Shown: positions 3,419 through 22,096 of the stretch, in pieces
Layout: each line of letters begins with the position of its first letter
Position numbering within the stretch: position 1 is the first letter of the stretch
Source of the DNA: a virus
IMG/VR virus record: IMGVR_UViG_3300004242_000018
Location: 1-22,524 of that record
Length of the DNA: 22,524 nt
Direction: 5' to 3' (one strand)
Program-made: the position numbers and the translations under genes
The notes under the pieces: model-generated
Told to the model about the DNA's origin: nothing
Databases searched by the model: none
Seen by the model: the letters and a program-made list of their open reading frames with translations, nothing else

Positions 3419-3907
3419 ATGGCAGAAACCGGACGACCCGCATACACAGACGACCAATACAAAGCATGGTTGCAAGACCTTGAGCCGTTTTTGAAAAAAG
3501 GCAACAGTATTTATTACGCATGCAACCGAGCCGGGTTGGGGTCACAGTATTGGACCGTTTTGGAAAAGTACAAATTGGGCGATTGGTTTTCCAAAAAAAT
3601 AGACGCATATAGGGCATACCCCGGAGAACTTATAAACGATACGTTGGCAACGTTATGTATGACTATTGCCGAAAAGGTAAAAAGCGGCGTCCCATGCACA
3701 AAGGACGAATTGGATACGCTCAAGTTTATGGCCGAAAAGCACCGGACGGCACAACCGTTTTTTGTGACACGTCAGGAAACGGCCGTTGCAGACGAAACCA
3801 AGGTGGGAAAAATACTTGATACAATAGAAACAGATTATGACGACGTTAGACAACAGGCTCAAAAACAAATGGTGGCGGTTGACCCACTTATACAAGATAA
3901 AGGATAA
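3419..3907 (+). CDS. terS: Putative terminase small subunit, 162 aa
   Basis: The gene lies directly before, and overlaps, the large terminase gene, which is the usual place for the small subunit. Residues about 8-70 fit the helical DNA-binding N-terminal domain of such proteins (AWLQDLEPFLKKGNSIYYAC, then a helix-turn-helix-like stretch ending in WFSKKIDAYRA). A further helical, Lys/Glu-rich region follows and the tail is acidic. In known systems the small subunit recognises the packaging site and regulates the large subunit. The call rests on position and fold pattern rather than a signature motif. ATG 3419 is 1 base after the previous TAA. The last 71 bases overlap the large subunit gene in another frame. 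Confidence 0.7.
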   Translation: MAETGRPAYTDDQYKAWLQDLEPFLKKGNSIYYACNRAGLGSQYWTVLEKYKLGDWFSKKIDAYRAYPGELINDTLATLCMTIAEKVKSGVPCTKDELDTLKFMAEKHRTAQPFFVTRQETAVADETKVGKILDTIETDYDDVRQQAQKQMVAVDPLIQDKG

Positions 3908-5441: not shown

Positions 5442-5464
5442 TATTTGTACCGTATGGGGTAAAA

Positions 5465-5502
5465 TATAATCAAGGTACACAAACCGGCATATGGTATATA
5501 AT
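5465..5502 (+). promoter_or_regulatory. Tandem -10 boxes before the portal gene
   Basis: The 67-bp gap after the terminase gene holds two perfect TATAAT hexamers, at 5465-5470 and 5497-5502. The second is exactly 6 bases before ATG 5509 and predicts a leaderless portal mRNA. The first would start near 5477 and give a leader of about 32 bases without a good Shine-Dalgarno site. No strong -35 box is visible for either. Confidence 0.7.
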
Positions 5503-5508
5503 TGATAT

Positions 5509-7068
5509 ATGGCAAAAGATAATTACCCGCAGTCACCCACCGTTGGTATTGGCGTTGCGTCAATAATGACACAAAACCAGACGACCGAGCATGTGGACGC
5601 CACCCCGGCGCCGACGGCCATTGGAATATTTCCGAACGATAAAGAAAAACAGCGCCTTGACGATTACGAGTATTACCGGCGGTTATTTTTGGGTAAACAT
5701 TTTGAGGCATTTAGAATTAAGATTGACGACCAACGATACAACCGGGCATATGCGCAATTACGGTATGTGGTGGTCAATTTTGCCGGCTTACTATCAAAAA
5801 TCATGGCCGACATGCTATTTTCAGAGCCGCCGACAATTAAGGTGCCGGATGGTGACCAAGATTGGGTTGACGCATTTGTACGGGAAAACAAACTTGACGT
5901 GCAGTTTTACGAAAGCGCATTGGGTAACAGTTACGCCGGTGACGCCGTGTTTAAGCTACGGGCCGGACCCCGACACAAAGCAGACACGCAAAGCACCGTT
6001 ATTGCCGAGGATATAACCCCACGTATTTATTTTCCGAAAATTAACGGGTTTAACGTCCGGGCAGAACCGGAGCAAATTGACCTCAAGTGGACGTTTAGGG
6101 TGGGCGACAAAATGTATTTGCGTGTTGAAACGCACGAACCGGGCAAAATAACCAATAGGGTATACGAAATGCAGGGTGACAAAATAATCCAAGAGGTTGG
6201 CCCGGCAATTGCCGGATTGGACGACCTACAATCAGAGGTGGCCACAAACGTTGATTTTCTCTTGATTACCCACGTTGCCAATTGGAAAACCGGCGACCGG
6301 CATTTTGGATTATCTGATTATCACGACCTTGATTACCTATTTTATGCGCTCAACAACCGCATGAGCAAAATTGACAACATTTTGGATAAACACGGTGACC
6401 CAATACTTATGGTCCCAAGCGGTATTTTGGACGAAAAGGGACAGGTCAAAAAGGGGTCATTGGGTGTTATTGAAGTTGAAAATGGCGAGGATGGCAAACC
6501 CGAGTATATTGTGTGGGACGCCTCGTTAGACAGCGCATTTAAGGAAGTTGAAAAATTGGTTGATTTCCTATACTTGACCGCCGAGATTTCCCCGGACCTA
6601 TTGGGATTGGGTGAGGGTGTAACCGAAAGCGGCCGGGCGCTCAAATTCAAACTTATGCGTACTTTAGCCAAAACACAGCGCAAACGCCTATATTACGACC
6701 AAGCAATCAAGGAATTGATTTATAATGCACAAGTATTTGCCAAGGCAAATAACCTTATGGTTGATGGTAAACCGTTAAAAGGTGAGCCGGTAAAGCCAGA
6801 AATTGAGTGGCAAGACGGATTACCGATTGACGATACCGAACTACAAGCCGATTTGATAGCGGCCATTGATGCCGGTATCAAGAGCAAAAAAGACGCAATC
6901 ATGGAATTGGACGCCGTTGATGAGCAAACGGCAGAGGATAAAATAAAGGAAATTGAGGAAGAAAAGCCAAAAATTGAAATACCACCCATGAAAATAAAAG
7001 ACGGCGAAAGCATAGTTGACCCAAAAACCGGAAAACCGCCGTTTTCACCAAAAGACCCCGTAAAATGA
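5509..7068 (+). CDS. Portal protein (SPP1 gp6-like family), 519 aa
   Basis: The 519-residue length, the position between the terminase and the MuF-type protein, and the sequence style fit the SPP1-type portal family. Such portals form a dodecameric channel at one head vertex for DNA entry and exit. Family-like stretches include the N-terminal wing region (RYNRAYAQLRYVVVNFAGLL) and a central region around LNNRMSKIDNILDKHGDPIL. The segment EISPDLLGLGEGVTESGRAL (near residues 361-380) is typical, as is the C-terminal crown region ending in a Glu/Lys/Pro-rich tail. It starts at ATG 5509 with no Shine-Dalgarno site and exactly 6 bases after TATAAT. Confidence 0.9.
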   Translation: MAKDNYPQSPTVGIGVASIMTQNQTTEHVDATPAPTAIGIFPNDKEKQRLDDYEYYRRLFLGKHFEAFRIKIDDQRYNRAYAQLRYVVVNFAGLLSKIMADMLFSEPPTIKVPDGDQDWVDAFVRENKLDVQFYESALGNSYAGDAVFKLRAGPRHKADTQSTVIAEDITPRIYFPKINGFNVRAEPEQIDLKWTFRVGDKMYLRVETHEPGKITNRVYEMQGDKIIQEVGPAIAGLDDLQSEVATNVDFLLITHVANWKTGDRHFGLSDYHDLDYLFYALNNRMSKIDNILDKHGDPILMVPSGILDEKGQVKKGSLGVIEVENGEDGKPEYIVWDASLDSAFKEVEKLVDFLYLTAEISPDLLGLGEGVTESGRALKFKLMRTLAKTQRKRLYYDQAIKELIYNAQVFAKANNLMVDGKPLKGEPVKPEIEWQDGLPIDDTELQADLIAAIDAGIKSKKDAIMELDAVDEQTAEDKIKEIEEEKPKIEIPPMKIKDGESIVDPKTGKPPFSPKDPVK

Positions 7069-7074
7069 TAAAAT
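7066..7074 (+). promoter_or_regulatory. Extended -10 promoter TGATAAAAT for leaderless gene at 7081
   Basis: TGA followed by TAAAAT (7069-7074) lies exactly 6 bases before ATG 7081. The TGA at 7066-7068 is the stop codon of the portal gene, so the stop doubles as the TGN part of an extended -10 element. No Shine-Dalgarno sequence is present. Confidence 0.65.
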
Positions 7075-7080
7075 GGGTAT

Positions 7081-8628
7081 ATGTACCCAAACCAAGTACC
7101 AATTGACCCCGCACATGTTGAGCGGTTGACCCGGATTTTCAAAACCGCATACGCCGATATTGTCAAACAAATGACCACCGCAACCGATTGGGGCGTACAA
7201 AACCGCAAGCAAATATTAGCCCAAGTTGAAAAGATATTATCTGACATTGGCGTGGACGTGCAAAAGTTTATTGAGGACGATTTAAGCGAATATTATAAAC
7301 AAGGGGCAAATGACGCCGTGGCCCAACTCACCAACATTGGTGCCGACGTTTCCGTGGCCGAAGGGTACAACCGGGTACATATGGAAGCCATAAAAGCATT
7401 GGTTGACGATACGGCGAAGGCATTTGGCGAAAGTATGACCGGTGTTTTACGTAGCGCCGACCTTATGTTAGGCCGGGCCACCCGGGAAGCAATCACCCAA
7501 AAGATAGCCACCGGGGTAATTGGCGGCGAGGCATTGCGGCAAGTCAAAAAACAAATTATCGGGACCATTGCCGAGCAAGGATTGGACGCCCTCAAGGACA
7601 AAGCCGGCCACGCATGGTCATTGGACCGGTACGCCGAAATGCTATATCGCACCAAAGTGGTTGAGGCCCGCAACCGAGGCCTTATCAACCGTATGGTGGA
7701 AAATGAGTATGATTTGGTCATGGTAAGCGCACACGCCGGCTCATGTGACAAATGCGCCCCATGGCAAGGGCAAATTTTAAGCGCCACCGGGCAAACCAAG
7801 GGGTATCACACCGTTGCCCAAGCCGAGCAAGACGGGTTATTTCACCCCAATTGCCGCCACGCAATCAATATTATGATACCCTCACTTGCGAGGCTAACAC
7901 AGGCATACGAACCATCTAATAAAGCAATAAAGGCCGTCAAAGTCACTACAGCCCCCGCTGTTAAGTTGTTATTGTACGCCGGAGGGAAAAATAGCCATAC
8001 GATAACCAACGTGAGGCAATGGGAAAGCGATTTGATGAAAGCCCGTGGGTTGGAAATTGCCGGCAAGGGCGCACCCCGTAATTACGGTGTGTACAAGGAA
8101 CAGTGGATAATTACCAAAACGTCACCCCGCATTGAAATAAACACCACAGCCATTGCCAAGACATACAAGGGCAATCGGTCATTGTACGAAAAGCAAGTTG
8201 AGCGTACGTTTTACCATGAAACGGGCCATTTTATCGATTTTAGGTTGACCGACGATACCATCCGGCTTACCCAAAGTGCCGAGGTATTGGCCAAACTCAA
8301 ATCCGAGGCCAACGAAATAGTTGTAAACCGCTTGGCCCACTCATATTTGGGCGAGCTTCCGGGCGGCAACACATGGGTGGAAAAATGGGGCCTCACGTTT
8401 GACGATATGCAAAAATTGGCCAATGGCAGGTCCATACCGATAAAAAACAAGGTTACCGGATACGAAACGCAAATAAAATTGACCAGGAAGCAATATCAAT
8501 ATTATTGGTCCTCAAAAGAGGTATTTGCCGACGCATACGCCCAATACCGGACTAACCCCGTGGCGTTTAATAGTTACGCACCAAAAATGTTTGAATATTT
8601 TGAAAAGTTAGGGGGTGTGAAATTATGA
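7081..8628 (+). CDS. MuF-like minor head protein fused to a C-terminal HExxH metallopeptidase-like domain, 515 aa
   Basis: Residues about 1-275 look like a phage minor capsid/MuF head-morphogenesis domain. It is a long helical N-terminal region followed by a Cys/His module with CDKC (222-225) and HPNCRH (255-260), next to the portal gene as usual. After a linker (about 280-330) comes a second domain with HETGH at 379-383, a zinc-peptidase HExxH motif. EVFADAYAQY (Glu480) is a plausible third ligand, as in gluzincins related to the anthrax lethal factor type. MuF proteins carrying C-terminal toxin or enzyme domains are known from temperate phages, so this domain may act after ejection into the host. 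Start ATG 7081 follows TAAAAT by 6 bases. The 3' end overlaps the next gene (ATGA). Confidence 0.85.
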   Translation: MYPNQVPIDPAHVERLTRIFKTAYADIVKQMTTATDWGVQNRKQILAQVEKILSDIGVDVQKFIEDDLSEYYKQGANDAVAQLTNIGADVSVAEGYNRVHMEAIKALVDDTAKAFGESMTGVLRSADLMLGRATREAITQKIATGVIGGEALRQVKKQIIGTIAEQGLDALKDKAGHAWSLDRYAEMLYRTKVVEARNRGLINRMVENEYDLVMVSAHAGSCDKCAPWQGQILSATGQTKGYHTVAQAEQDGLFHPNCRHAINIMIPSLARLTQAYEPSNKAIKAVKVTTAPAVKLLLYAGGKNSHTITNVRQWESDLMKARGLEIAGKGAPRNYGVYKEQWIITKTSPRIEINTTAIAKTYKGNRSLYEKQVERTFYHETGHFIDFRLTDDTIRLTQSAEVLAKLKSEANEIVVNRLAHSYLGELPGGNTWVEKWGLTFDDMQKLANGRSIPIKNKVTGYETQIKLTRKQYQYYWSSKEVFADAYAQYRTNPVAFNSYAPKMFEYFEKLGGVKL

Positions 8629-8774
8629 GCGACCCAAAAGACGACAGAGAAAACAAATTACCGCCGGTATTTGACCCGGAACTTGGCGAGATTGACCCGG
8701 AAAACCCGGACGAAACCGACGAGCTTATTGACGATTACGAGGCCGGACAAGAGCCACCCAAAAACAATACTTGA
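8625..8774 (+). CDS. Very acidic small protein, 49 aa, coupled to the MuF fusion gene
   Basis: The start ATG 8625 overlaps the MuF stop as ATGA and has TAGGGGGTG (8609-8617) eight bases upstream, so it is a real coupled gene. The product has 17 acidic and only 4 basic residues in 49, with a repeated pattern (DPELGEIDPENPDETDELID), and is probably disordered. No family is recognised. Tight coupling to a MuF-peptidase fusion makes an immunity or chaperone role possible, but a small head-assembly factor is equally possible. Its TGA stop lies inside a TTGACA hexamer (8771-8776). Confidence 0.75.
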   Translation: MSDPKDDRENKLPPVFDPELGEIDPENPDETDELIDDYEAGQEPPKNNT

Positions 8775-8839
8775 CAATCACCCGAACGTTTGCAACAATG
8801 TTATTGTAAGGTTGTTTTGCGTGGACTTACCACGTAAAA
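8771..8839 (+). promoter_or_regulatory. Candidate promoter and 5'-leader hairpin before the scaffold gene
   Basis: The 84-bp gap contains a consensus TTGACA (8771-8776). Seventeen bases later comes a weak -10 (TGC then AACAAT, 8791-8799), the only place in the window where a good -35 box stands out. The leader then holds a stem of about 10 bp, TTTTGCGTGG (8815-8824) with CCACGTAAAA (8830-8839), around the loop ACTTA (one G-U pair). It is followed by A-rich sequence rather than T, so it is not a + strand terminator. No Shine-Dalgarno site precedes ATG 8859. A role in mRNA stability or control of scaffold translation is inferred. Confidence 0.45.
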
Positions 8840-8858
8840 AAACGAAACAAAAACAACT

Positions 8859-9542
8859 ATGACAGAAAATACAGGTGCCGGCGACGGTACCGAATCAAAT
8901 AAAGGCGGCGACGGAACCGGGGCAGACCCGAAAAAAACTGATAAAACCGTCAAAACCGACGTAAAGGACGCCAAAACCGGCGAGGACACGTTTGATGAAA
9001 GCGTGTTCGACAACCCGAAGTTGTGGACGCACCCACGTTTCAAGAGCCTAAACGAGAGAGCCAAAAGGGCCGACGCCTTGGAAAAGGCAGAAGCCGAAGC
9101 CGAGGAAAAACGGTTGAAAGAGGGCAAAAAGTTTGAGGAACTTGCAACGAAAGCTCAACAGGAGCGGGACACAATCAAAACTCAACTAATTGCCTCAAGA
9201 CAGGACAACCGCATTATTTCCGAAGCCTCAAAAGTTGGCGTTGTGGACATTGAAACAGTATTGAAATTGGTTGATAGAACCGGCATACATGTTGACGATA
9301 ACGGAAACGTTACCGGAGCAATTGAAGCCGTCCAATCATTGTTGGCCACCAAACCTTTTTTGAAAGGTAAGGCCGGGACAACAAAAATTGGGTCAGATAC
9401 CAACCCGGGCGACGGAAGCGACGCAGGGGCCAAACGATTTAAGTTGTCACAATTACAGGACCCGATATTTTACCGGGAAAATGAAAAGGACATAATGGCC
9501 GCTTATAAAGCCGGATTGATTGAAGATGATATAACCAAGTAA
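8859..9542 (+). CDS. Capsid scaffolding protein, 227 aa
   Basis: The gene sits between the minor head protein and the major capsid protein, the usual scaffold position. Residues 1-45 are a low-complexity Gly/Asp/Lys/Thr region. Residues about 65-125 form a strongly charged coiled coil (RAKRADALEKAEAEAEEKRL onward). The middle is helical (residues 130-170), and the C-terminus contains KRFKLSQLQDPIFYRENEKD, which resembles the basic/amphipathic capsid-binding end of scaffolds. Scaffolds guide procapsid assembly inside the head and then leave or are cleaved. No protease gene is seen in the window. The start is ATG 8859; no ribosome binding site is evident. Confidence 0.85.
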   Translation: MTENTGAGDGTESNKGGDGTGADPKKTDKTVKTDVKDAKTGEDTFDESVFDNPKLWTHPRFKSLNERAKRADALEKAEAEAEEKRLKEGKKFEELATKAQQERDTIKTQLIASRQDNRIISEASKVGVVDIETVLKLVDRTGIHVDDNGNVTGAIEAVQSLLATKPFLKGKAGTTKIGSDTNPGDGSDAGAKRFKLSQLQDPIFYRENEKDIMAAYKAGLIEDDITK

Positions 9543-9635
9543 AATACCCCGTTTCACCCCACAAAATACCCCTCGTTTATACTCAAAATTACGATATTTG
9601 GTGTATCCAAACATTAGTTTTTTTGAAAGGGGGTG
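9541..9635 (+). promoter_or_regulatory. Leader of the capsid gene: direct repeats, possible -10, strong ribosome binding site
   Basis: Two exact copies of AAAATACCCC lie at 9541-9550 and 9563-9572, 22 bases apart (about two helical turns), so a protein could bind both on one DNA face. A possible -10 box TATACT is at 9578-9583, without a clear -35. The best Shine-Dalgarno sequence of the window, AAAGGGGGTG (9626-9635), precedes ATG 9644 by 8 bases. This fits high-level translation of the capsid protein. The promoter and operator roles are inferred. Confidence 0.5.
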
Positions 9636-9643
9636 AAAAAATT

Positions 9644-10558
9644 ATGACCGAAAACGTACTCAACACAACGACTAATGCAGTGTTCATTCCGACTATCATT
9701 GCAAACAAGGTACTACAGCGTTTTCCGTCCTACCTCAATTTGGCACGTACCGTGTCAAGAGATAGCGATTGGACAACGGCAACCGTTGGCCAGACTATAC
9801 AGGTCCCTAAGACCGGCGCAGTATCAGCTAACGACAAAGCGGCAGGAGATGTTTACACAAAACAGAACCCAACCGGTACCAATGTTTCCGTGACCCTCAA
9901 CAAACACAAAGAGGTTACATTTACGATTGATGATGTAACCAAAGTGCTTGAAAATCAGGACACGCAGATGAGATATGCAGACGACGGCGCCATTGCGCTT
10001 GCGGAAGCAGTTGAAACCTCACTTGCAGATTTGCACCCGAGTGTAACAAGCACGATAACGTGGGACCGCACAAGCGCAACCACAATTGACGCCTCGTTAC
10101 TCAAATTGCGTAAGTTTTTTACGGACCAGAAGGTCCCAAAAACAGAGCAACGGTATTTGTATGTTGATGCCACAGTTTTTAACGACTTATTGGCACAACA
10201 GAAATATACCGACCAGTCATGGCGGGGAGCAAACAACACAGTTGCAGACGGACAGATGATAAAAACCTACGGGTTTGATATTACCGAAAGCCAGATGATT
10301 GCTGTATCCGGTTCACCGGTGGCATATCACAATTTGGCCTACACAAGAAACGCATTTGTGTTGGCGTCCAGACCATTACCAAGGCCGCAAGGTTTTGGTG
10401 GCAATTTTGCCGTGGTCAACGACTCAAGCATTGGTTTGTCACTACGTACTCTTTTTTGGTACAACGCCGACCTTGGCGCGCACCAATTAACAATTGACTT
10501 ACTTTACGGCGTCAATATTCTTGACGTTCGCAGAGTTTGTGAACTTGAGAGTTTTTAA
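9644..10558 (+). CDS. Major capsid protein (P22 coat-like HK97 fold), 304 aa
   Basis: This gene follows the scaffold and encodes the shell subunit. The N-terminal part (NAVFIPTIIANKVLQRFPSY, then TVGQTIQVPKTGAV) and the stretch VTFTIDDVTKVLENQDTQMR resemble the P22 coat-protein family. In that family an N-terminal arm and long spine helix are followed by a beta-rich A-domain. Residues about 255-304 (the sequence around SSIGLSLRTLFWYNADLGAH, to CELESF) form the conserved-looking C-terminal strand region. I chose ATG 9644 because AAAGGGGGTG is correctly spaced; an in-frame TTG at 9623 lies before that site. Codon choice differs slightly from neighbours, with more CAG for Gln, as expected for a highly expressed gene. 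Confidence 0.88.
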   Translation: MTENVLNTTTNAVFIPTIIANKVLQRFPSYLNLARTVSRDSDWTTATVGQTIQVPKTGAVSANDKAAGDVYTKQNPTGTNVSVTLNKHKEVTFTIDDVTKVLENQDTQMRYADDGAIALAEAVETSLADLHPSVTSTITWDRTSATTIDASLLKLRKFFTDQKVPKTEQRYLYVDATVFNDLLAQQKYTDQSWRGANNTVADGQMIKTYGFDITESQMIAVSGSPVAYHNLAYTRNAFVLASRPLPRPQGFGGNFAVVNDSSIGLSLRTLFWYNADLGAHQLTIDLLYGVNILDVRRVCELESF

Positions 10559-10602: not shown

Positions 10603-10627
10603 TGTGGTAAAAAACAAATGATTGTCA

Positions 10628-10633
10628 TATAAT
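10628..10633 (+). promoter_or_regulatory. -10 box TATAAT for leaderless gene at 10640
   Basis: A perfect TATAAT lies exactly 6 bases before ATG 10640 and just after the capsid-gene hairpin. This marks the start of a new transcription unit that leads the glycosyltransferase island. No -35 box is evident. Confidence 0.72.
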
Positions 10634-10639
10634 ATTTGC

Positions 10640-11848
10640 ATGCCATTGCTTGTTGGACCAACCGGAAAAATGACACCAATTGATGACCCCAAAAAATTTG
10701 CGGAGTGGTTACAACAACCCGGATTTAGTAAGGCAACAGAAGAACAAGAGCGGTTATATATAGAGGAAGCCCGGGCAAGGATAGCCAAGGTCAATAATCT
10801 CAATGCCGCACAAGCGGGTATTTATTTGGCTACAGTATCAGAAGGTGGCAAGGACGGATACAGTATAGCCAGTAAAAATTTGGTCCGGCAGTTTGAGGCC
10901 GCCGGTATTGTTGTTTCTACACATTACACAGGTCAAAAGGTGGCAATTTTATTTCATAACCCATACTCAATAGCCCGTATAGAGGCCCCATATAGAATTA
11001 TTTACACCATGTTTGAAAGTACAAAAATACCCGATGATTGGATTGACTATTTGAAAGCGGCCGACGAGGTGTGGGTACCGTCACAATTCAATCAGGTGGC
11101 GTTTGAGGCGGCCGGTATCAAAACTACAATTATGCACCTTGGATATGATAACGAAGTATATAAACCCATTGAACGTACCACGGCGCGAAAAGACCGCCGG
11201 CCGTTTACATTTTTGCATTATAACGCATTTAATATACGCAAAGGGTTTACCGAGGTTTGGAAAGCATTTACAGCCGAGTTTGAGAAAACCGAGCCGGTCA
11301 AATTGATACTCAAAACGACACAAAACAATAGCCCACTGCCTATTACCAAAGGCGAATATCCAAATGTTGAGATAATATACGGTAAGGTTACCGAGCGGGA
11401 AATGCACGACATAATGGCCCGGTCAGATTGTTTTGTATTTCCGTCCCGGGGTGAAGGGTTTGGTATGACGCCGCTTGAATGTATGGCTACCGGTATGCCG
11501 ACAATTATACCCAATGCCCATGGTATGAGTGAGTATTTCGATAGTAAATATATGTATGAGGTCAAAGTTAAGGAAACATGCCCGGCCTTGTATGCCCGAT
11601 ATAAAGATATGGACGTGGGGCAAATGTTTGTGAGTGACGTTGACGATTTGCGCAAAAAAATGCGTTGGGTGGTTGAGCATAACGACGAGGCATTAGATAT
11701 GGGACGCCGGGCGGCAGAATACGTCAAACCGTGGGCATACACACAGATATATCAAAAACACATTACCCGGGTACGTGAGATAATGGGTATGCAATTGGAA
11801 CCAAGGAAATTGCAAAACGTACTAACATTGGAACGTGTGAGGGGGTGA
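10640..11848 (+). CDS. GT4-type (GT-B fold) glycosyltransferase, 402 aa
   Basis: The C-terminal domain shows the GT4 retaining-glycosyltransferase signature RGEGFGMTPLE, the EX7E pair being Glu272 and Glu280 in the nucleotide-sugar site. LECMATGMPTIIP and the middle FTFLHYNAFNIRKGFTEVWK (the usual hR-KG region) also fit. The N-terminal 60 residues are a charged extension before the first Rossmann domain. Such enzymes transfer a sugar from a nucleotide donor; donor and acceptor cannot be read here. Start ATG 10640 lies 6 bases after TATAAT; an in-frame TTG at 10622 would place the promoter inside the gene. Its last codons contain the GGGGGTG ribosome binding site of the next gene. Confidence 0.9.
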   Translation: MPLLVGPTGKMTPIDDPKKFAEWLQQPGFSKATEEQERLYIEEARARIAKVNNLNAAQAGIYLATVSEGGKDGYSIASKNLVRQFEAAGIVVSTHYTGQKVAILFHNPYSIARIEAPYRIIYTMFESTKIPDDWIDYLKAADEVWVPSQFNQVAFEAAGIKTTIMHLGYDNEVYKPIERTTARKDRRPFTFLHYNAFNIRKGFTEVWKAFTAEFEKTEPVKLILKTTQNNSPLPITKGEYPNVEIIYGKVTEREMHDIMARSDCFVFPSRGEGFGMTPLECMATGMPTIIPNAHGMSEYFDSKYMYEVKVKETCPALYARYKDMDVGQMFVSDVDDLRKKMRWVVEHNDEALDMGRRAAEYVKPWAYTQIYQKHITRVREIMGMQLEPRKLQNVLTLERVRG

Positions 11849-12145: not shown

Positions 12146-13276
12146 ATGAAGATAAAATATACGGGGCCTTGTCGTGATTATTCAGGGTACGGCGAAGCGT
12201 CCCGGCATGACATTGCCGCATTGGTCAAAGCCGGGGTTGAAGTAACCACACAAATACCGGTGTATTGCCCCGAATTGTCCGATTACGGACCGTTGGGTGA
12301 CCTTGCTTTATCATTACAAGGACGTGAATTAGGGTATAACGTCAAAATATTACACACGACCCCAAACGTGTATGGTCAATATGCAGAACCAAATAAATAC
12401 TTGATTGGCCGGGCATTTTGGGAAACAGACAAGGTGCCGTTGGATTTTGCGCTCAATTTACAAAAATGCCATGAAATTTGGACCGGGAGTGAATATAACA
12501 AAAAAGCCATGCACAATGCCGGAGTAACCCGGGATATTTACATAATACCAGAGGCGATTGACGCCAAAGTTACCCCGGACGAGTTTGACCCGTATTTAGT
12601 GGAAAACAAGGACGGATACCGGTTTTATTCAATATTTGAGTGGACAGAGCGGAAAAACCCAACCGCATTGCTTGAGGCATATTGGCGTGAGTTTGAAAAT
12701 ACCCCGGACGTATCATTGACCCTCAAAACATACCAAATATCATTTGGACCGGATAAGCGGGAACCGATAGACCAACAAATTAGAAAATTAAAAGCAAAAT
12801 TGAACCTCAAAGTTTATGCACCGGTATTTATGTACCGAAACCTCATGGATAGACGGCAAATATATCGTTTCCACCGGACATTTGATTGTTTTGTGAGCGC
12901 CCACCGGGGTGAGGGTTGGGGTATACCACAAATGGAAGCATTGACCATGGCAAAACCGATAATTTCAACCAATTTGGGCGGTATACATGAGTATTTGACG
13001 GATAAAAAGGACGCATTATTGATTGGATATACTATGACCCCGGTTGATAACAAGGGTTATAACGAACAATGGTATACACCGGACCAGAATTGGGCCAATG
13101 TGGACATTGCCCATTTACGTGAGGCAATGCGGTGGGTTTACGAGAATAGGGACAAAGCCGCAAACATGGGCAAACTTGCCCGTGAAACGGCCGTGAAACG
13201 GTTTGATTTGCCGATTGTGGGTAAGATTATGGCCGACCGGTTAAAATTGGTAAATGATAAGGTGTTGAATATATGA
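12146..13276 (+). CDS. GT4-type glycosyltransferase, 376 aa
   Basis: The N-terminus IKYTGPCRDYSGYGEASRHD is a typical acceptor-domain start for this family. The C-terminal domain has HRGEGWGIPQME with the EX7E glutamates at Glu256 and Glu264, followed by AKPIISTNLGGIHEYL. The middle FYSIFEWTERKNPTALLEAY is the donor-domain hinge region. It shares overall architecture with the enzyme at 10640, including an EGxG...E motif, but is divergent. A weak TTGTCA/TACGGT pair (12110-12115 and 12132-12137) may be a promoter just before ATG 12146. The 3' end overlaps the next gene (ATGA at 13273). Donor sugar unknown. Confidence 0.9.
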   Translation: MKIKYTGPCRDYSGYGEASRHDIAALVKAGVEVTTQIPVYCPELSDYGPLGDLALSLQGRELGYNVKILHTTPNVYGQYAEPNKYLIGRAFWETDKVPLDFALNLQKCHEIWTGSEYNKKAMHNAGVTRDIYIIPEAIDAKVTPDEFDPYLVENKDGYRFYSIFEWTERKNPTALLEAYWREFENTPDVSLTLKTYQISFGPDKREPIDQQIRKLKAKLNLKVYAPVFMYRNLMDRRQIYRFHRTFDCFVSAHRGEGWGIPQMEALTMAKPIISTNLGGIHEYLTDKKDALLIGYTMTPVDNKGYNEQWYTPDQNWANVDIAHLREAMRWVYENRDKAANMGKLARETAVKRFDLPIVGKIMADRLKLVNDKVLNI

Positions 13277-14271
13277 GATTACTATATTTCAGTTGTCACA
13301 GCATACTTGAATATGACGAGTTGCGGTTATTTGAGGATTTGGGTATCCAATATTTTAGTTTGGGCAGTTATGTGAGGCCGACAGCGCCGGTTGACCCAAT
13401 ACGTCCATCGCTCAAAAGTTACCCGGAAACATGGGTGCGTGGCAATGCCCCACCCCGAGATAATATACCCTTGGAATTTATAAGCCAATTTGACACGATA
13501 ATTGTAATGCACGTACCCGAATGGATTGAGCAAAATTGGGAAAAGTTTAGAGGTAAACGGGTTATTTGGCGTACCATAGGTCAGTCAACCCCGAATATTG
13601 AGGCTCGCATGGCTCAATATACAGGACGGGGGTTAGAAATTGTACGTTATAGCCCAAGAGAGGCAAATTTGCGTCCTACAGCCGGTTGTTCAAAAATTAT
13701 CAGATTTTATAAAGATGAGCGGGAGTTTAGCAATTGGAATGGTGCCGGCAGTGAAGTTATAACGTTTGCACAGGATATGCAACATCGTGGCGAGCATTGT
13801 AATTACAACGCGTTTATTGAAATTACCAAGGGTTTTAACGCTCACGTATATGGTCCGAAAAATGAAGGGTCAGGACCGCTCAATGGTGGTTTTTTAACAT
13901 ATGGCCAATTGCAACAAAAATTACGTGATGCCCGAGTTTACATATATACCGGGACCCAACCGGCATCGTATGTACTCAATTTAATTGAGGCCATGTTGAC
14001 TGGTGTACCTATTGTTGCCATAGGACCGAAACACGGAAATAGTTTGAATATAGGTAAGGGCGCTGAATTATATGAGGCACAGGATATAATCAAAAATGGG
14101 GTCAATGGTTTTATATCTGATGATATAAACGAATTACGGGGGCGTGTACAATCATTGTTGGACGATTTGAAATTAGCACGACGTATTGGGGAAATGGGAC
14201 GGCAAACTGCTATTGATTTGTTTGGTAAAAAAGTGATACAAGAGAAATGGAAACAATTTTTGGGTGTATAA
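13273..14271 (+). CDS. GT-B-like glycosyltransferase, 332 aa
   Basis: The start ATG 13273 overlaps the previous TGA (ATGA), and AAGGTG at 13259-13264 is a plausible ribosome binding site. The fold pattern is GT-B: an N-terminal Rossmann-like part (MRLLYFSCHS, then FDTIIVMHVPEWI and KRVIWRTIGQSTPN) and a C-terminal donor domain. The donor domain has YIYTGTQPASYVLNLIEAML (Glu239 near the usual donor-binding glutamate) and TGVPIVAIGPKHGN. The classical EX7E is not complete, so it is a divergent GT4-like or unclassified GT-B enzyme. It is probably part of the same glycan pathway as its neighbours. Its last codons GTA TAA T form a promoter for the methyltransferase gene. Confidence 0.82.
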   Translation: MRLLYFSCHSILEYDELRLFEDLGIQYFSLGSYVRPTAPVDPIRPSLKSYPETWVRGNAPPRDNIPLEFISQFDTIIVMHVPEWIEQNWEKFRGKRVIWRTIGQSTPNIEARMAQYTGRGLEIVRYSPREANLRPTAGCSKIIRFYKDEREFSNWNGAGSEVITFAQDMQHRGEHCNYNAFIEITKGFNAHVYGPKNEGSGPLNGGFLTYGQLQQKLRDARVYIYTGTQPASYVLNLIEAMLTGVPIVAIGPKHGNSLNIGKGAELYEAQDIIKNGVNGFISDDINELRGRVQSLLDDLKLARRIGEMGRQTAIDLFGKKVIQEKWKQFLGV

Positions 14272-14272
14272 T
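14267..14272 (+). promoter_or_regulatory. -10 box TATAAT overlapping a stop codon, before gene at 14282
   Basis: TATAAT 14267-14272 contains the TAA stop (14269-14271) of the upstream glycosyltransferase. The box ends 9 bases before ATG 14282, giving a predicted leader of about 3 bases. A second, weaker AATAAT at 14270-14275 has the exact 6-base spacing. Confidence 0.55.
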
Positions 14273-14281
14273 AATTGTATT

Positions 14282-14968
14282 ATGAATATTACAAAGCGAT
14301 TACAGGAAATTGACCCAACATTGATATTACACAATGAGGGCAATTGGTCCGAACCGCTTGACCCAACAAAACCCGGTTATACCTCATTTAACGATGCCGG
14401 CGTTGAAACCGAAACCGGCGAATTTTTATACAGCATGGTGCGTATACTCAAACCGGAGTTTGTGTTGGAAACAGGCACACACATTGGCGTTGGTGCCGCA
14501 TACATGGGCCAAGCGTTAAAAGATAACCGTAATGGGATATTGGAAACGGTGGAGTTTATACCGGAATTACGGGACCGGGCGAAAATACGCATACAACAAT
14601 TGCAACTTGAATTATTTGTATTTTGTCATTTGGGCGACGTAGCAAAATTTGAACCGTCCCACACATACAAAATGATTTTGCTTGATACAGAGCCACAAAC
14701 ACGATTTGCGGAGTTGATAAAATTTGAGCCATTTTTGGAACCCGGCGGGTTTGTTTTTATTCACGACCTACACCGGCACATGGCACAGGTAACACCATTA
14801 CACCCGGACCACCCGGGCCAACCATATTGGCCATGGGGTCCGTTACCGGAAGCGGTCAAGGAATTAGTACAAAATGACGAATTACGGCCATTTCATTTTG
14901 GAACGCCCCGAGGCCTTACGGGATTTTATAAACCCGACATGGGCGATTACAAAGCATGGGACGCATAA
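14282..14968 (+). CDS. SAM-dependent methyltransferase (class I, Methyltransf_24-like), 228 aa
   Basis: The Rossmann SAM-binding motif I is VLETGTHIGVG (about residues 61-71), preceded by the long helical N-terminus. A post-strand acidic position follows in TVEFIPELRD, then motif LLDTE (133-137) and the strand FVFIHDLH (157-164). These match class I methyltransferases of the type found in sugar and macrolide O-methylation clusters. In this island a glycan O-methyl cap is a reasonable role, but the substrate is inferred from context only. I place the start at ATG 14282 after the TATAAT at 14267; GTG 14264 upstream would put the promoter inside the gene. The end overlaps a small membrane peptide gene. 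Confidence 0.85.
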   Translation: MNITKRLQEIDPTLILHNEGNWSEPLDPTKPGYTSFNDAGVETETGEFLYSMVRILKPEFVLETGTHIGVGAAYMGQALKDNRNGILETVEFIPELRDRAKIRIQQLQLELFVFCHLGDVAKFEPSHTYKMILLDTEPQTRFAELIKFEPFLEPGGFVFIHDLHRHMAQVTPLHPDHPGQPYWPWGPLPEAVKELVQNDELRPFHFGTPRGLTGFYKPDMGDYKAWDA

Positions 14969-15072
14969 AAGCGATAATTAGTGGAATTGTTTTTATTGTG
15001 ATTATTTGGCCGCTTATGGTCATTTATTTATATGCAAGACGGCACGAATTACAAAAAAAAGTGGGCAATTGA
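14956..15072 (+). CDS. Putative small membrane peptide, 38 aa
   Basis: An ATG at 14956, inside the end of the methyltransferase gene, opens a 38-codon frame ending at TGA 15070-15072, inside the next gene. It has a basic start (MGRIKA), one clear hydrophobic segment (IISGIVFIVIIWPLMVIYLY, about residues 7-26) and a basic tail (ARRHELQKK). It fills the otherwise empty 63-bp gap, which supports it. No ribosome binding site is seen, however, so it may be untranslated. Its layout is similar to the membrane peptide at 734. Confidence 0.45.
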   Translation: MGRIKAIISGIVFIVIIWPLMVIYLYARRHELQKKVGN

Positions 15073-15424
15073 CCTTGACGGCGTAATTAGCGCCAACCCC
15101 CCCGCACTTGCATGGCTCACGTATCACTTACTCAAAAACGAAAACCACAACGAAATTTATATACTTACGTGGCGTGACGGGTCAAACCCGGACCGTAAAG
15201 CCGAAACTATAGCAGATTTGGCCCGGTTTGGCATATCGTATACCGAGTTAGTCATGGCCCCACGTAAATTTCCCACAATCAGAGGTGCCGCATATTGGAA
15301 AGTGGCCCAAGTCAATAAATTGGGCATACACATTTGGTTGGACGACGAAATAAAAAACTATACCCGGGATTTGGGCATGGACCTTGACCGGTTATTGCCA
15401 GACGTGGATAAAATATATATATGA
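15032..15424 (+). CDS. HAD-superfamily-like hydrolase, 130 aa
   Basis: The sequence begins with WAIDLDGVIS, the HAD motif I (Asp14 nucleophile, Asp16), followed by ILTWRDG with Thr46 as motif II. A lysine near 90 is a motif III candidate, and IWLDDEIKNY (Asp104/Asp105) is motif IV. The short 130-residue length means little or no cap domain, as in small phosphatases such as polynucleotide or heptose-phosphate phosphatases. In this glycan island a sugar-phosphate phosphatase or nucleotidase is plausible, by context only. The start ATG 15032 lacks a clear Shine-Dalgarno site. The stop overlaps the next ATG (ATGA). Confidence 0.78.
   Translation: MQDGTNYKKKWAIDLDGVISANPPALAWLTYHLLKNENHNEIYILTWRDGSNPDRKAETIADLARFGISYTELVMAPRKFPTIRGAAYWKVAQVNKLGIHIWLDDEIKNYTRDLGMDLDRLLPDVDKIYI
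15409..15414 (+). promoter_or_regulatory. -10 box TAAAAT for gene at 15421
   Basis: TAAAAT lies exactly 6 bases before ATG 15421, within the last codons of the HAD-like gene, and has TG two bases upstream. It follows the leaderless pattern, although ATGA coupling could also serve this gene. Confidence 0.55.
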
Positions 15425-16410
15425 GTAGAGCGGTTGTTACACATTTTGACGGTGACCCATTTACAATCAATGCGTGGTTGCGCCTATACCAAGACTATTG
15501 GCGGGGTGAGTGTGACGCCGTATATGGTACGTTATATTACAACCCGGCAGTTATACCCCCCGAGGTGGTAGCGTTTGACAAAACCCTATTTGCCGACTTT
15601 CCCGAAATACACATTGACGTGGTGGCCAAATATGCCCCCCCGGAAGCCGGAAACCAACAAACACTCAAAACGGTAAAAGAAGATTACGTGGGCCTTATTG
15701 AAAGTGACGGTTTGATATATGGTCGTGGTGTGGTTGACCAATGTTTTAGGTTATTAGAATATGAAGGGCAAGACATTATTGCACCCCCATGGTATTTAAT
15801 TGACGACCCATATTTTAACGGAGATTTACAAAGTAAGGGTTTTATGCGGTGTTTTACATTTGCCAAAATGGAATTACTACGCAAAACAGACCTTGATTTC
15901 ATGCCCCGGACTATACCGGTCAATTATCGGGTAACTGACGAGTACCAAACAGTACGTCCGGTACCGCTTGATTGTTTTGGTTGGTTATCATGGCAATTAT
16001 TGTTACTCACCAAAAAAATAACCTATACCCCGGCCAATATTTTGGGACCGGATAATATATTTGCGCCCTATTCAAATTTTAAGTGGGTGCATGTACGGCA
16101 AATGAGTAGTAGCGCCATAGGCATGGGTGGGGCCGAGTACGCATTGTGGCAACAGAACGACGCCAAATTACTTGAGCGGGTAATGAGGCTATTTACGGAG
16201 GATTGGCCCGGAGGCCCCGCAGAGTTTATCCACATAAAAGCGGTTGCATTTAAGTTACTATTTTGGGACATACTCAAGAGTAAGCAAACATTGGGTAATT
16301 TTGCCGACGATTACCGGCACATGCTTGAGGCGGTAATTGAGTATTATGCTATGCCCCGAATATATATATATGAAATAAAAGGTTTTTATAAGGGGTTATT
16401 TAATATATGA
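15421..16410 (+). CDS. Putative GT-A-like glycosyltransferase, 329 aa (paralogue of the next gene)
   Basis: The N-terminus (AVVTHFDGDPFTINAWLRLY) and the central GLIESDGLIYGRGVVDQCFR align by eye with the next gene (GDPFLLQYWLRNFYDKW and MLVEDDCYMIKSGIVDWCF). The E-S-D triplet at residues 94-96 sits where GT-A enzymes carry the metal-binding DXD motif. Later regions are rich in Trp, Tyr and Phe, and the protein ends with a basic aromatic helix (YEIKGFYKGLFNI). The GT-A assignment is inferred from this pattern and from the island context; no family is named with confidence. The gene overlaps both neighbours by ATGA. Confidence 0.6.
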   Translation: MSRAVVTHFDGDPFTINAWLRLYQDYWRGECDAVYGTLYYNPAVIPPEVVAFDKTLFADFPEIHIDVVAKYAPPEAGNQQTLKTVKEDYVGLIESDGLIYGRGVVDQCFRLLEYEGQDIIAPPWYLIDDPYFNGDLQSKGFMRCFTFAKMELLRKTDLDFMPRTIPVNYRVTDEYQTVRPVPLDCFGWLSWQLLLLTKKITYTPANILGPDNIFAPYSNFKWVHVRQMSSSAIGMGGAEYALWQQNDAKLLERVMRLFTEDWPGGPAEFIHIKAVAFKLLFWDILKSKQTLGNFADDYRHMLEAVIEYYAMPRIYIYEIKGFYKGLFNI

Positions 16411-17486
16411 GAACAACAAGAGCGGCTATATTACCGTATCCGGGCGACCCATTTTTATTACAATATTGGTTACGCAATTTTTACGATAAATGGGCCGCCG
16501 AAATTGACAAATTATATATCATTTGTAATACCCCAATTGAAAAACAGGTTGTTGAATATATTGAGTTTTTATGTACCGAAGGTGTTGAAACGGAAACGAA
16601 CCCCAAAATTGATTTCACATATATTGACCACCACATACAGCATGGTGATGCCATACTAATTGGATTGGAAAAGGCAACAGAAAAAAATATCATGTTGGTT
16701 GAGGATGATTGCTACATGATAAAAAGTGGCATAGTTGATTGGTGTTTTACTCAAATTGAGAGCGGATTATTTGACATAGTTGGCAGTAAACGAGGTAGTT
16801 GCCATGATGAAATTTTAGAAGCCGCCCGACGTATATATGGTATATGCTATGAGGGCGAGGGCGACCAAGGCCCCAATTTTTGGCCGAATTGCTTTTTTGC
16901 ATCCCGCCAATTATTGTTGGCCACGGACCGGGACTACAATTCTCGAGCGTGGACGCAAGGTGAGATAATCACCCCGTTGAATGACTATGAAGTTGTAGCC
17001 CCGGTCATATCGTCCGATACGTTTGTTTGGGCCTCATTACAATTACGAGCCATGGTACCAGAAAACCGGATTTGTTATTTTCCACAATATCACGCACACC
17101 CGGACGATTACAAACATTATGAACAAAAACGGTATTTATTTGACGGTCACGCCCCATGGTGCCATATAGGCAGTTTATCAAGCGGCGTATCCGGGGCAAT
17201 CATGGACGACCAAGGGAGGTCATTATCCAAAAGAACCCATGAAGAACCACATGGGCCTACCATATTGCCGGCGGCGTGGTGTGATATAACAAGTGAGTTT
17301 TCACAAATGGAATGGGAACGGCGGGTGCAATGGTGGCTTACATTTTGGGAACGGCGGGAAGTACAAGAAATACAAAAATTTGCTAATTTATACAAAGTTG
17401 GATTGGACCAGATTATCAATCAATATAAATTAAATATCAAACGTATCAGACAACGACAGGAAATATACAAAACATTAGGATTATAA
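16407..17486 (+). CDS. Putative GT-A-like glycosyltransferase, 359 aa
   Basis: ATG 16407 overlaps the previous stop (ATGA), with AAGGGG at 16390-16395 as a possible ribosome binding site. The protein opens with a Rossmann-like strand (RAAILPYPGDPFLLQYWLRN, then DKLYIICNTP). It carries IMLVEDDCYM with Glu99-Asp100-Asp101, a good DXD-type metal site for a nucleotide-sugar GT-A fold. A Cys/Trp-rich donor region (GPNFWPNCFFASRQLLLATD) follows, then a His-rich stretch (QYHAHPDDYKHYEQ). The C-terminal 60 residues are helical and basic. The reaction is presumably sugar transfer; donor and acceptor are unknown. Overall confidence comes from the DXD context and the paralogue next door. Confidence 0.68.
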   Translation: MRTTRAAILPYPGDPFLLQYWLRNFYDKWAAEIDKLYIICNTPIEKQVVEYIEFLCTEGVETETNPKIDFTYIDHHIQHGDAILIGLEKATEKNIMLVEDDCYMIKSGIVDWCFTQIESGLFDIVGSKRGSCHDEILEAARRIYGICYEGEGDQGPNFWPNCFFASRQLLLATDRDYNSRAWTQGEIITPLNDYEVVAPVISSDTFVWASLQLRAMVPENRICYFPQYHAHPDDYKHYEQKRYLFDGHAPWCHIGSLSSGVSGAIMDDQGRSLSKRTHEEPHGPTILPAAWCDITSEFSQMEWERRVQWWLTFWERREVQEIQKFANLYKVGLDQIINQYKLNIKRIRQRQEIYKTLGL

Positions 17487-17488
17487 CT

Positions 17489-18178
17489 ATGGTTACAGAT
17501 TTGATAATGACATGGCCCCGCAATTGTGATTATCCAAAGTGGCGGCAATTTTTACGTGACAACCGACCAAAATTTAATGAGGTATTGATTGCATTTATGG
17601 AAACCAACCAAGGTGAGGATTATCGGGGGTTTATTCAAAATGCCATGTTTGTCGATTACGTACATTTTGGTGACGCACCCCAACCAAAATCCGGTGAGGA
17701 TTGGCGTAACATTGCAATAAACGCCATGCTTTTGCACTCTTATAATGCGCCATGGGTTTGGTTTACCGAACAGGATTTTTACCCATTGCCCGGGTTTTGG
17801 GATGAGGTGCAACACCATGAAAATGAGGGGTGCGACGTAATAGCCGTTTATCAAGGCGACCGCATGCACCCATGTTGCATATTTGCCAAGCAACAGTCCA
17901 TACGACGGACCCGGCGCAATTTTGGCATAATACCGGACAAGGCAGACCATTTTTACATGTTTCAAGAGGACATAGAGGGCAACGATTTGAAAATTGGCGT
18001 CATAAACCCGGCGACTTATTACCACCACAACGGATTATCACATAACATGAACTTGCTTTATAACGGCGAGCAACCAAATTATAAAGTGGATAAATTTAAT
18101 GAATGGTTGAACGAGTGTCTACAGGTAAGCGTGCCAATTGACCAAAGGTTTATTGAACTTGTGGGAAAAATGCGGTAA
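17489..18178 (+). CDS. Putative GT-A-like glycosyltransferase, 229 aa
   Basis: ATG 17489 has AGGA at 17477-17480 as a ribosome binding site. The protein is shorter than its two upstream neighbours but has the same plan. A first strand and helix (DLIMTWPRNCDYPKWRQFLR) lead to NAPWVWFTEQDFYPLPGFWD, with Glu94-Gln95-Asp96 in the position of the metal-binding motif of the other two. DVIAVYQGDRMHPCCIFAKQ then resembles a donor-site strand and loop. It is most likely a third member of the same small GT-A-like set. It ends the operon before a structured 120-bp gap. Confidence 0.58.
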   Translation: MVTDLIMTWPRNCDYPKWRQFLRDNRPKFNEVLIAFMETNQGEDYRGFIQNAMFVDYVHFGDAPQPKSGEDWRNIAINAMLLHSYNAPWVWFTEQDFYPLPGFWDEVQHHENEGCDVIAVYQGDRMHPCCIFAKQQSIRRTRRNFGIIPDKADHFYMFQEDIEGNDLKIGVINPATYYHHNGLSHNMNLLYNGEQPNYKVDKFNEWLNECLQVSVPIDQRFIELVGKMR

Positions 18179-18298: not shown

Positions 18299-19336
18299 AT
18301 GTACACAGTATTTGCGGACCAACATCATTTTGGACTATACAATTCGCTCAAGCTATTGTTTGAGGACCGATTGGGCGGTACCCTGTACCGGCCGATTGGC
18401 CGGGAATGGTTGGACGCCGGGTATTGGCGCATTGCCGAAATTTACAACAACCACCCCACCACAATTGCCCAATATTTAGGAATACACGACGATTACGTAA
18501 GCGAGGACGGCGTATATAATATTTGGGAAAACGGACACAAATTTTTTCAACACGCCATTACGCTTGACCGGTTTATGCGTGAGCCGATTGATATTGTTAT
18601 TGCATCCGTACCAGAGCATGTTGAGAGTTTTGCACGACTATGCGCCACTCACCCAAACCACCCAAAATTTATTTACCAAATTGGTAACTCATGGAATATT
18701 GACGGAAGTTTACCGGTAAAAAATATCATGGCAAGCGCACGTATGGGCGGTATGAGCATTGGATTACATACCATTGAATATCACCAAGAGTTTGACACCA
18801 AAATATTTAAGCCCCGGGTTGAGTTTTCTTACCCGGACAACAATATATTTTCATTTATCAATTGCCTCAACACCGCAAGCATATACGCCCATGATTGGCC
18901 GTTATTTACCGGACTTGAAAGCGCCATGCCCGATTGGAAATGGCAAACGTTTGGCGGCTCATGCCGTGACGGCGAAATGAACGGACAACAGGCGGTTGCA
19001 GACAAAATGCGTGAGGCAAAATTTGTGTGGCACGTCAAAGCCGGTGGCGACGGGTACGGCCATGTTTTGCATAGTGCCATTGCATGTGGGCGGCCCCTCA
19101 TTGTCAAAAAAAGTTATTACATGGGCAAATTGGCCGAGCCACTTTTGATAGACGGGGTAACGTGCATTGATATTGACGGGTTGAGTATTCCACAAATTGT
19201 CAACAAAATTGTGGATAACTCAAAATTGGATAGGTATTTGGCTATGTGCCAAGCCGCACACCAAACATTTGCCCATTATGTGGATTTCAACGCCGAGGGC
19301 GAAGCACTAAAACAATTTATGCAAAACTTGGTATAA
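18299..19336 (+). CDS. GT-B-like glycosyltransferase, 345 aa
   Basis: The start at ATG 18299 is set by the TATAAT 6 bases upstream; the frame stays open back to 18233 but that part contains the promoter. The N-terminal domain starts MYTVFADQHHFGLYNSLKLL. A middle Rossmann-like section includes IDIVIASVPEHVESFARLCA and KFIYQIGNSWNIDG. The C-terminal domain has VWHVKAGGDGYGHVLHSAIA and CGRPLIVKKSYYMG, the usual shape of a GT-B donor-binding domain, but without a clean EX7E. It is the last glycosyltransferase of the island, next to the collagen-like fibre gene. Its stop codon lies inside the next promoter. Confidence 0.75.
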   Translation: MYTVFADQHHFGLYNSLKLLFEDRLGGTLYRPIGREWLDAGYWRIAEIYNNHPTTIAQYLGIHDDYVSEDGVYNIWENGHKFFQHAITLDRFMREPIDIVIASVPEHVESFARLCATHPNHPKFIYQIGNSWNIDGSLPVKNIMASARMGGMSIGLHTIEYHQEFDTKIFKPRVEFSYPDNNIFSFINCLNTASIYAHDWPLFTGLESAMPDWKWQTFGGSCRDGEMNGQQAVADKMREAKFVWHVKAGGDGYGHVLHSAIACGRPLIVKKSYYMGKLAEPLLIDGVTCIDIDGLSIPQIVNKIVDNSKLDRYLAMCQAAHQTFAHYVDFNAEGEALKQFMQNLV

Positions 19337-19337
19337 T
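19329..19337 (+). promoter_or_regulatory. Extended -10 promoter TGGTATAAT for leaderless gene at 19344
   Basis: TGG plus TATAAT (19332-19337) lies exactly 6 bases before ATG 19344 and contains the TAA stop of the upstream gene, the same construction as at 3181-3189. It probably drives the small gene and the collagen-like fibre gene together. Confidence 0.75.
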
Positions 19338-19343
19338 TTAAGT

Positions 19344-22096
<2,753 letters not shown>

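Follow-up and report, generated by a model that had tools for sequence, protein, structure and literature searches.

A 22,524-base window of a virus record (IMG/VR record IMGVR_UViG_3300004242_000018), meaning the whole stretch of DNA analyzed here, contains a cassette of putative glycosyltransferase (GT) and methyltransferase genes between the phage head genes and a gene for a collagen-like protein. Terminase, portal, minor head, scaffolding, and major head proteins were assigned within 3837-10558 using PHROGs. The order 3′ of the capsid gene is two GT4-like genes, a weaker GT-B-like gene, a Methyltransf_24 gene, a HAD-like gene, three genes termed A, B, and C, a further gene termed D, and the collagen-like gene (Table 1). 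All are on the plus strand, and neighbors overlap or are separated by gaps of no more than 297 bases. The products of A, B, and C are 329, 359, and 229 amino acids long, each with an ATG start; A and B overlap by 4 bases, and B and C are spaced by 2. A sequence-only reading had described these as three consecutive GT-A-like genes carrying an acidic triad at the same position. Its coordinates and triads were exact (GLIE94-S-D96 in A, MLVE99-D-D101 in B, and WFTE94-Q-D96 in C), as were the GDPF..WLR N-termini it had attributed to the first two (A begins ..DGDPFTINAWLR and B begins ..PGDPFLLQYWLR).

Table 1. Genes of the cassette and the adjoining candidate acceptor in the window
Feature	Position	Strand	Evidence
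GT4-like glycosyltransferase (GT-B type), first gene of the cassette	10622..11848	+	Pfam PF00534, 58.2 bits; phrog_2170
GT4-like glycosyltransferase (GT-B type)	12146..13276	+	Pfam PF00534, 47.7 bits
GT-B-like glycosyltransferase, third GT gene	13273..14271	+	PF00534, 22.8 bits, under the cut-off of 26.4
Methyltransferase (Methyltransf_24)	14264..14968	+	Pfam, 32.9 bits vs. cut-off of 26.3
Small protein, HAD-like by eye	15032..15424	+	PHROG polynucleotide kinase, E 2e-4
Gene A, predicted GT-A-type glycosyltransferase, A/B family, A subclade	15421..16410	+	E94-S-D96; aligned D32, D184, H224
Gene B, GT-A glycosyltransferase, A/B family	16407..17486	+	E99-D-D101, D34, D204, H253; AlphaFold2, Foldseek, VIA
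Gene C, compact GT-A glycosyltransferase	17489..18178	+	E94-Q-D96, D153, H179; AlphaFold2, Foldseek, VIA
Gene D, probable GT-B-like enzyme	18299..19336	+	hhalign; without Pfam match
Collagen-like protein, candidate acceptor	19583..22096	+	Pfam Collagen, 212 bits

By sequence comparison, A and B are paralogs, and C is a remote homolog recognizable by profiles only. BLASTP aligned A with B over 371 columns (E 6e-19, about 25-26% identity) and gave weak matches for A with C (E 0.018) and B with C (E 0.18). Families were gathered from IMG/VR, comprising 25 A/B and 21 C rows and later 39 and 32. The sequence-only reading had proposed a profile comparison among the three genes, and hhalign related the A/B and C families with probabilities of 96.9-97.2 (E 1.9e-10 to 4.6e-11). 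Control probabilities were at most 0.5% for A/B against nine other families, 2.1% for C against nine others, and 2.8% for A/B against 10 column-shuffled C profiles; the highest control, obtained with query and target swapped, was 7.4% for the GT4-type family GT1 against C. The A/B hidden Markov model (HMM) picked up six C open reading frames (ORFs; E 1e-4 to 4.5e-4), and the C HMM picked up three A/B ORFs (E 3.6e-6 to 9e-4). The hhalign alignment of B with C paired E99-x-D101 with E94-x-D96, D204 with D153, and H253 with H179. These positions are highly conserved: D34, D101, D204, and H253 were each present in 39/39 A/B sequences and E99 in 36/39, and E94, D96, D153, and H179 were each present in 32/32 C sequences. 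The E-x-D motif alone was rejected as proof, as the GT-B-type product of the 12146 gene also has it at residue 93, and further occurrences were seen in B (residue 32), the portal, the scaffold, and the gene designated 301. Three hydrophobic or small residues followed by E-x-D within residues 90-105 appeared in 1.2%, 1.1%, and 0.8% of shuffled A, B, and C sequences, respectively, for a pattern that was picked post hoc. The motif is meaningful because A, B, and C are homologous.

A GT-A fold is well supported for B and C by predicted models, and A presumably has the same fold, given its full-length homology to B. AlphaFold2 models made with the family alignments as input had a predicted local distance difference test (pLDDT) score of 94.7 and a predicted template modeling (pTM) score of 0.92 for B, and 95.9 and 0.91 for C. 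Foldseek matched 575 PDB chains for B and 234 for C (E≤1e-3), and among the best 50 matches listed for each, nearly all were sugar or nucleotide transferases. The best VIA Z scores were 17.0 for B (root-mean-square deviation 3.0, 184 residues) and 13.8 for C (3.7, 186 residues); many GT-A enzymes were tied in VIA, so none can be singled out as the nearest. GT2-like GT-A enzymes having this fold in common with the models include SpsA (1h7l; Z 15.2 to B and 13.1 to C), TarP, TarS, WrtF, and K4 chondroitin polymerase, and the solved structures listed are only ~4-16% identical to the window proteins. Annotated viral GT-A proteins also matched B. The GT-A core of B comprises approximately residues 1-264 and is followed by a C-terminal helical part, where the helices at 297-359 are barely covered by fold matches. 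In both models, E-x-D stands directly after a strand. The GT-A-like claim of the sequence-only reading is thereby upheld for B and C, both of which have predicted GT-A folds, and extends to A by homology to B only.

The same reading had suspected a poorly described group, and the database searches bore this out. In searches with window A, B, and C, neither Pfam (E up to 1) nor NCBIfam (E up to 0.1) contained a matching model, PHROG matches did not improve on E 0.024, and tblastn against 50,697 annotated phage records gave no relative at E 0.01. The gathering cut-off of Pfam GT2 (PF00535) was not reached by the window proteins. A B ortholog in locus L008 cleared it (26.7 vs. 23.3 bits), and 12/25 A/B rows and 4/21 C rows matched GT2 at E≤0.1. 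The putative glycosyltransferase 3bcv was considered as a PDB relative and found unconvincing (E 0.2 with family profile A1 and 0.077 with A3); coiled-coil adhesin matches to the C-terminal helices outranked it with profile A3. The PDB profile search with the C family gave nothing relevant, and one further member gave no match. The analysis supplies two GT-A families that the searched family libraries miss in this window.

A, B, or C served as the bait for retrieving related loci, whose genes were labeled by tblastn (E≤1e-4) and HMMs; because of this baited retrieval, co-occurrence is informative but frequency is not. Identical or apparently identical contigs were excluded (L010, L020, L021, L025, and L035; L037, a copy of L013), as was the fragment L006 (5.7 kb), which has the same sequence as the window and ends inside A. 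L007 and L008 are nearly alike and were counted as two. An A/B gene lies upstream of C in 28/28 nonredundant C-holding loci (B being truncated by the contig end in L015), and D lies downstream of C in 26, while the remaining two loci stop shortly after C. The window's methyltransferase family was found in 24/28 loci and the third GT gene in 25/28, several others being cut by contig ends; the third GT gene sits between C and D in L023, L024, and L034. Where a relative of the window capsid gene was recognized (16/28 loci), the gene listed immediately after it is the first GT gene. On the other side, the stretch after D, referred to here as the slot, is closed by a gene that matches head-tail adaptors. 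Behind it are connector, immunoglobulin-domain/major tail, and tail-assembly chaperone families, with a tape-measure gene in L011, and these families place the cassette within the structural block. A 202-codon extra gene is located between B and C in L004 (9680-10285) and L005 (12071); in L004 it encodes a second methyltransferase, matching Methyltransf_24 and rhamnosyl O-methyltransferase/CmcI, both above cut-offs.

The sequence-only reading had also proposed local gene duplication followed by specialization, perhaps with one enzyme per sugar linkage. In a tree of 44 A/B rows, window A and four A-type rows formed one clade (support 100/100), and window B fell in a separate 20-row clade (support 99/95); two long branches were uncertain. 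A is 74-75% identical to its orthologs in other phages. Because the A-type enzymes of different phages form their own clade, the A/B duplication appears from the tree to predate the divergence of these phages, and a recent tandem duplication was rejected. Common ancestry of A, B, and C stands, but a recent event does not, given the old A/B split and the still greater distance of C; a separate enzyme for each sugar linkage is a plausible hypothesis. More than one A/B-family gene is present in 13/28 loci; some of these genes match weakly, for instance the additional one of L022 (E 1.3e-4). The HAD-like gene occurs in 5/29 loci (L004, L005, L006, L029, and L036), exactly those with an A-type gene. 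The A-type gene of L029 (7369-8093) is divided between two frames, reflecting either a broken gene or a sequencing error.

Both borders of the slot, D and the head-tail adaptor gene, are visible in 14 loci (with L025 standing in for L005), and the slot holds a Ser/Thr-rich ORF in 10 of them. Repeat types vary among slots (GxT or GPS collagen, SPS, T-rich), and Ser/Thr richness is retained. By eye, the slot proteins of the window, L004, L005, L008, L012, and L015 resemble one another over an N-terminal stretch and differ in the repeats after it, and that of L005, whose N-terminal stretch is common with the window's, matches tail-fiber PHROGs. The collagen-like protein of the window is 29% Gly and 27% Thr, with Thr at the Y (third) position in 85% of 78 counted triplets. 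Long collagen tracts beyond the window were found only in L008 and L015, and a short one in L004, when L003-L024 were scanned. A tyrosine recombinase gene lies inside the slot of L025 (13150-13854; the same contig as L005), beside a fiber-like gene, and is possibly tied to fiber exchange. The distant locus L036 encodes a 479-codon SPSPSLSP repeat protein (19114-20550, minus strand; 41% Ser+Thr) ~7 kb from D.

We give an even chance to the interpretation that A, B, and C are metal-dependent nucleotide-sugar GT-A enzymes of a phage cassette that glycosylates a virion protein, the slot protein being the likeliest one. A, B, and C, together with four GT-B-like enzymes and the methyltransferase, would assemble a glycan. 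In hhalign, the family of the 13273 gene was related to the two GT4-like families with probabilities of 90.4 and 94.7, and the D family was related to the 13273-gene family (probability 81.8, E 1.1e-5) and to the two GT4-like families (63.6 and 27.1). The start of D is listed as TTG 18233 among the ORFs, and the starts of its relatives point to ATG 18299. GT-A enzymes with a metal-binding acidic motif move a sugar from a nucleotide donor. In each of the three enzymes, E-x-D would bind the nucleotide diphosphate together with Mg or Mn, the later Asp that is conserved (D204 in B, D153 in C) would act as the base, and the conserved His (H253 in B, H179 in C) would complete the metal site; the donor sugars and the order of action are likewise matters that we infer. 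A, B, and C would probably be cytoplasmic and act late in infection, because the cassette is located between the capsid and head-tail adaptor genes and the three proteins have no clear membrane segment (hydropathy maximum ≤1.26 in any 19-residue window). The set of seven putative transferases and one methyltransferase points to an oligosaccharide that carries methylated sugars; the product would be a short chain, probably O-methylated, attached to a virion protein. The likeliest acceptor would be the Ser/Thr-rich repeat protein of the downstream slot, which in the window is collagen-like with Gly-X-Thr triplets.

The choice of acceptor draws on a bacterial precedent. According to the available text of PMC7157674, Clostridioides difficile SgtA, a GT-A enzyme encoded directly upstream of bclA3, adds N-acetylglucosamine to Thr in a collagen region of GPT triplets. 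The two systems are alike in having a GT-A transferase gene beside a collagen-like protein with Thr triplets. They differ in that SgtA and BclA3 belong to a spore surface rather than a phage and that one initiating transferase is shown in that text. Glycosylation of the slot protein is preferred here because SgtA, a GT-A enzyme beside a Gly-Pro-Thr collagen-like protein, glycosylates the threonines of its neighbor; in the window, a collagen-like protein with Thr-rich triplets likewise adjoins the transferases.

A prokaryote genome collection was scanned once with a single 8-residue pattern, which was not exhaustive and yielded two loci. One, L037, has the layout of L013 and is a phage contig binned in a Patescibacteria metagenome-assembled genome, so host assignment from the bin is doubtful. 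The other, L038, is a Cohnella luojiensis scaffold on which 1-20708 holds relatives of C (39% identity), of the methyltransferase (56%), of D (two genes, 44-45%), and of the GT4-like genes (24-28%); no A/B gene was found among the cassette relatives checked on this scaffold. C was found in 1/197 genomes of Cohnella's family (E≤1e-8), the one being the Cohnella genome itself. GDP-sugar, sulfotransferase-like, and adenylylsulfate-kinase-like genes were also noticed by eye in L038. An ORF at 1865-2305 of L038 was considered as a spore-coat protein, and no support was found.

Elsewhere in the window, the minor head protein (7081-8628) has Phage_min_cap2 at residues 14-274 and is extended at its C terminus by a part that contains HETGH and looks, by eye, like a zinc metallopeptidase. 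A metallopeptidase family M24 (methionine-aminopeptidase-like) gene at 1894-2616 precedes the terminase (Pfam, 113.5 bits).

Several observations weigh against the slot protein as the acceptor. The slot is empty in 4/14 resolvable loci despite the cassette (L009, L011, L014, and L029); beyond the slot, in the downstream direction, L009 and L011 do have ORFs of moderate Ser/Thr richness (22-27%). In 6 of the 12 loci with empty or unresolved slots (L014, L029, L018, L019, L022, and L034), which are partial stretches, there was no ORF of at least 150 amino acids with Ser+Thr of at least 20% or Gly of at least 16%. The Ser/Thr enrichment of the slot speaks for this acceptor: among ORFs of at least 180 amino acids in the 10 filled-slot loci, Ser+Thr reached at least 20% in 16/29 slot ORFs vs. 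3/110 elsewhere (Fisher p 1.3e-10). That count, however, covers filled slots only and treats ORFs that are not independent, and phage fibers are commonly Ser/Thr-rich in any case. Also on the opposing side, the third GT gene reaches a hydropathy of 1.66, a borderline value for a membrane segment, and the C. luojiensis cassette contig has no collagen match, with no phage genes noticed on it by eye; the two collagen matches of that genome are on other contigs.

Retention of the cassette beside an empty slot favors the main rival explanation, in which the major capsid or tail-tube protein would be glycosylated instead, as described for mycobacteriophage Che8. The cassette stands directly behind the capsid gene in the 16/28 loci where that gene was recognized, and glycosylation of mycobacteriophage capsids and tails has precedent: in the available texts of PMC12619734 and PMC11256854, phage-encoded glycosyltransferases decorate the particles of Che8 and Rita. 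The glycosylation described there is on the capsid and tail tube, and the Maravista genes are near the 3′ genome end, unlike the cassette here. Against a capsid acceptor, B-C-D is retained in the distant loci L018, L019, L023, and L024, where the upstream sequence examined, up to 10 kb, contains no relative of the window capsid gene. We consider this explanation fairly unlikely, though it is the chief competitor. Modification of a host envelope polysaccharide, for superinfection exclusion or lysogenic conversion, appears still less probable. TarP, TarS, RmlT, and GtrB are among the fold matches (GtrB, of phage serotype conversion, among those of B), and a tyrosine recombinase is present in 4/14 related records, although one of these (L005/L025) lies inside the slot and need not mean lysogeny. 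The GtrA flippase of GtrB-type systems was found in 0/14 related records, many of them fragments, and the absence of a clear membrane segment in A, B, and C and the location between capsid and head-tail adaptor genes both argue against an envelope target. Least probable is glycosylation of hypermodified phage DNA. DNA-acting phage glycosyltransferases are known and often suggested (available texts of PMC10202952 and PMC12619734), but a thymidylate-synthase-like base-modifying gene (PF00303) was found in 0/14 records, many of them fragments. The cassette is also surrounded by structural genes, and DNA glycosylation would hardly call for as many as seven transferases.

Returning to glycosylation of the slot protein, we tentatively suggest, as a broader and rather less probable proposal, an undescribed phage protein-O-glycosylation system. 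The cassette would be transferable and would comprise methyltransferases together with about seven glycosyltransferases, some from the two new GT-A families and the others GT-B-like. Its products would coat exchangeable fibers of tailed phages that have collagen-like or serine-rich repeats, a possible viral counterpart of the bacterial glycosylation of serine-rich-repeat proteins and exosporium collagen, with a related cassette on the Cohnella chromosome. According to the available text of PMC10202952, the freshwater actinophages E7 and F5 also encode both glycosyltransferases and collagen-like proteins; the likeness is one of gene content, and no phage-collection record matched A, B, or C. 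Among the matches listed, no published description of such a cassette was found in the open-licence literature. To our knowledge, few cases of phage virion glycosylation have been described. The conserved cassette beside exchangeable Ser/Thr-rich proteins offers concrete enzymes and a concrete acceptor to examine and, if the proposal is true, these phages would keep collagen-like and serine-rich fibers as sugar scaffolds.

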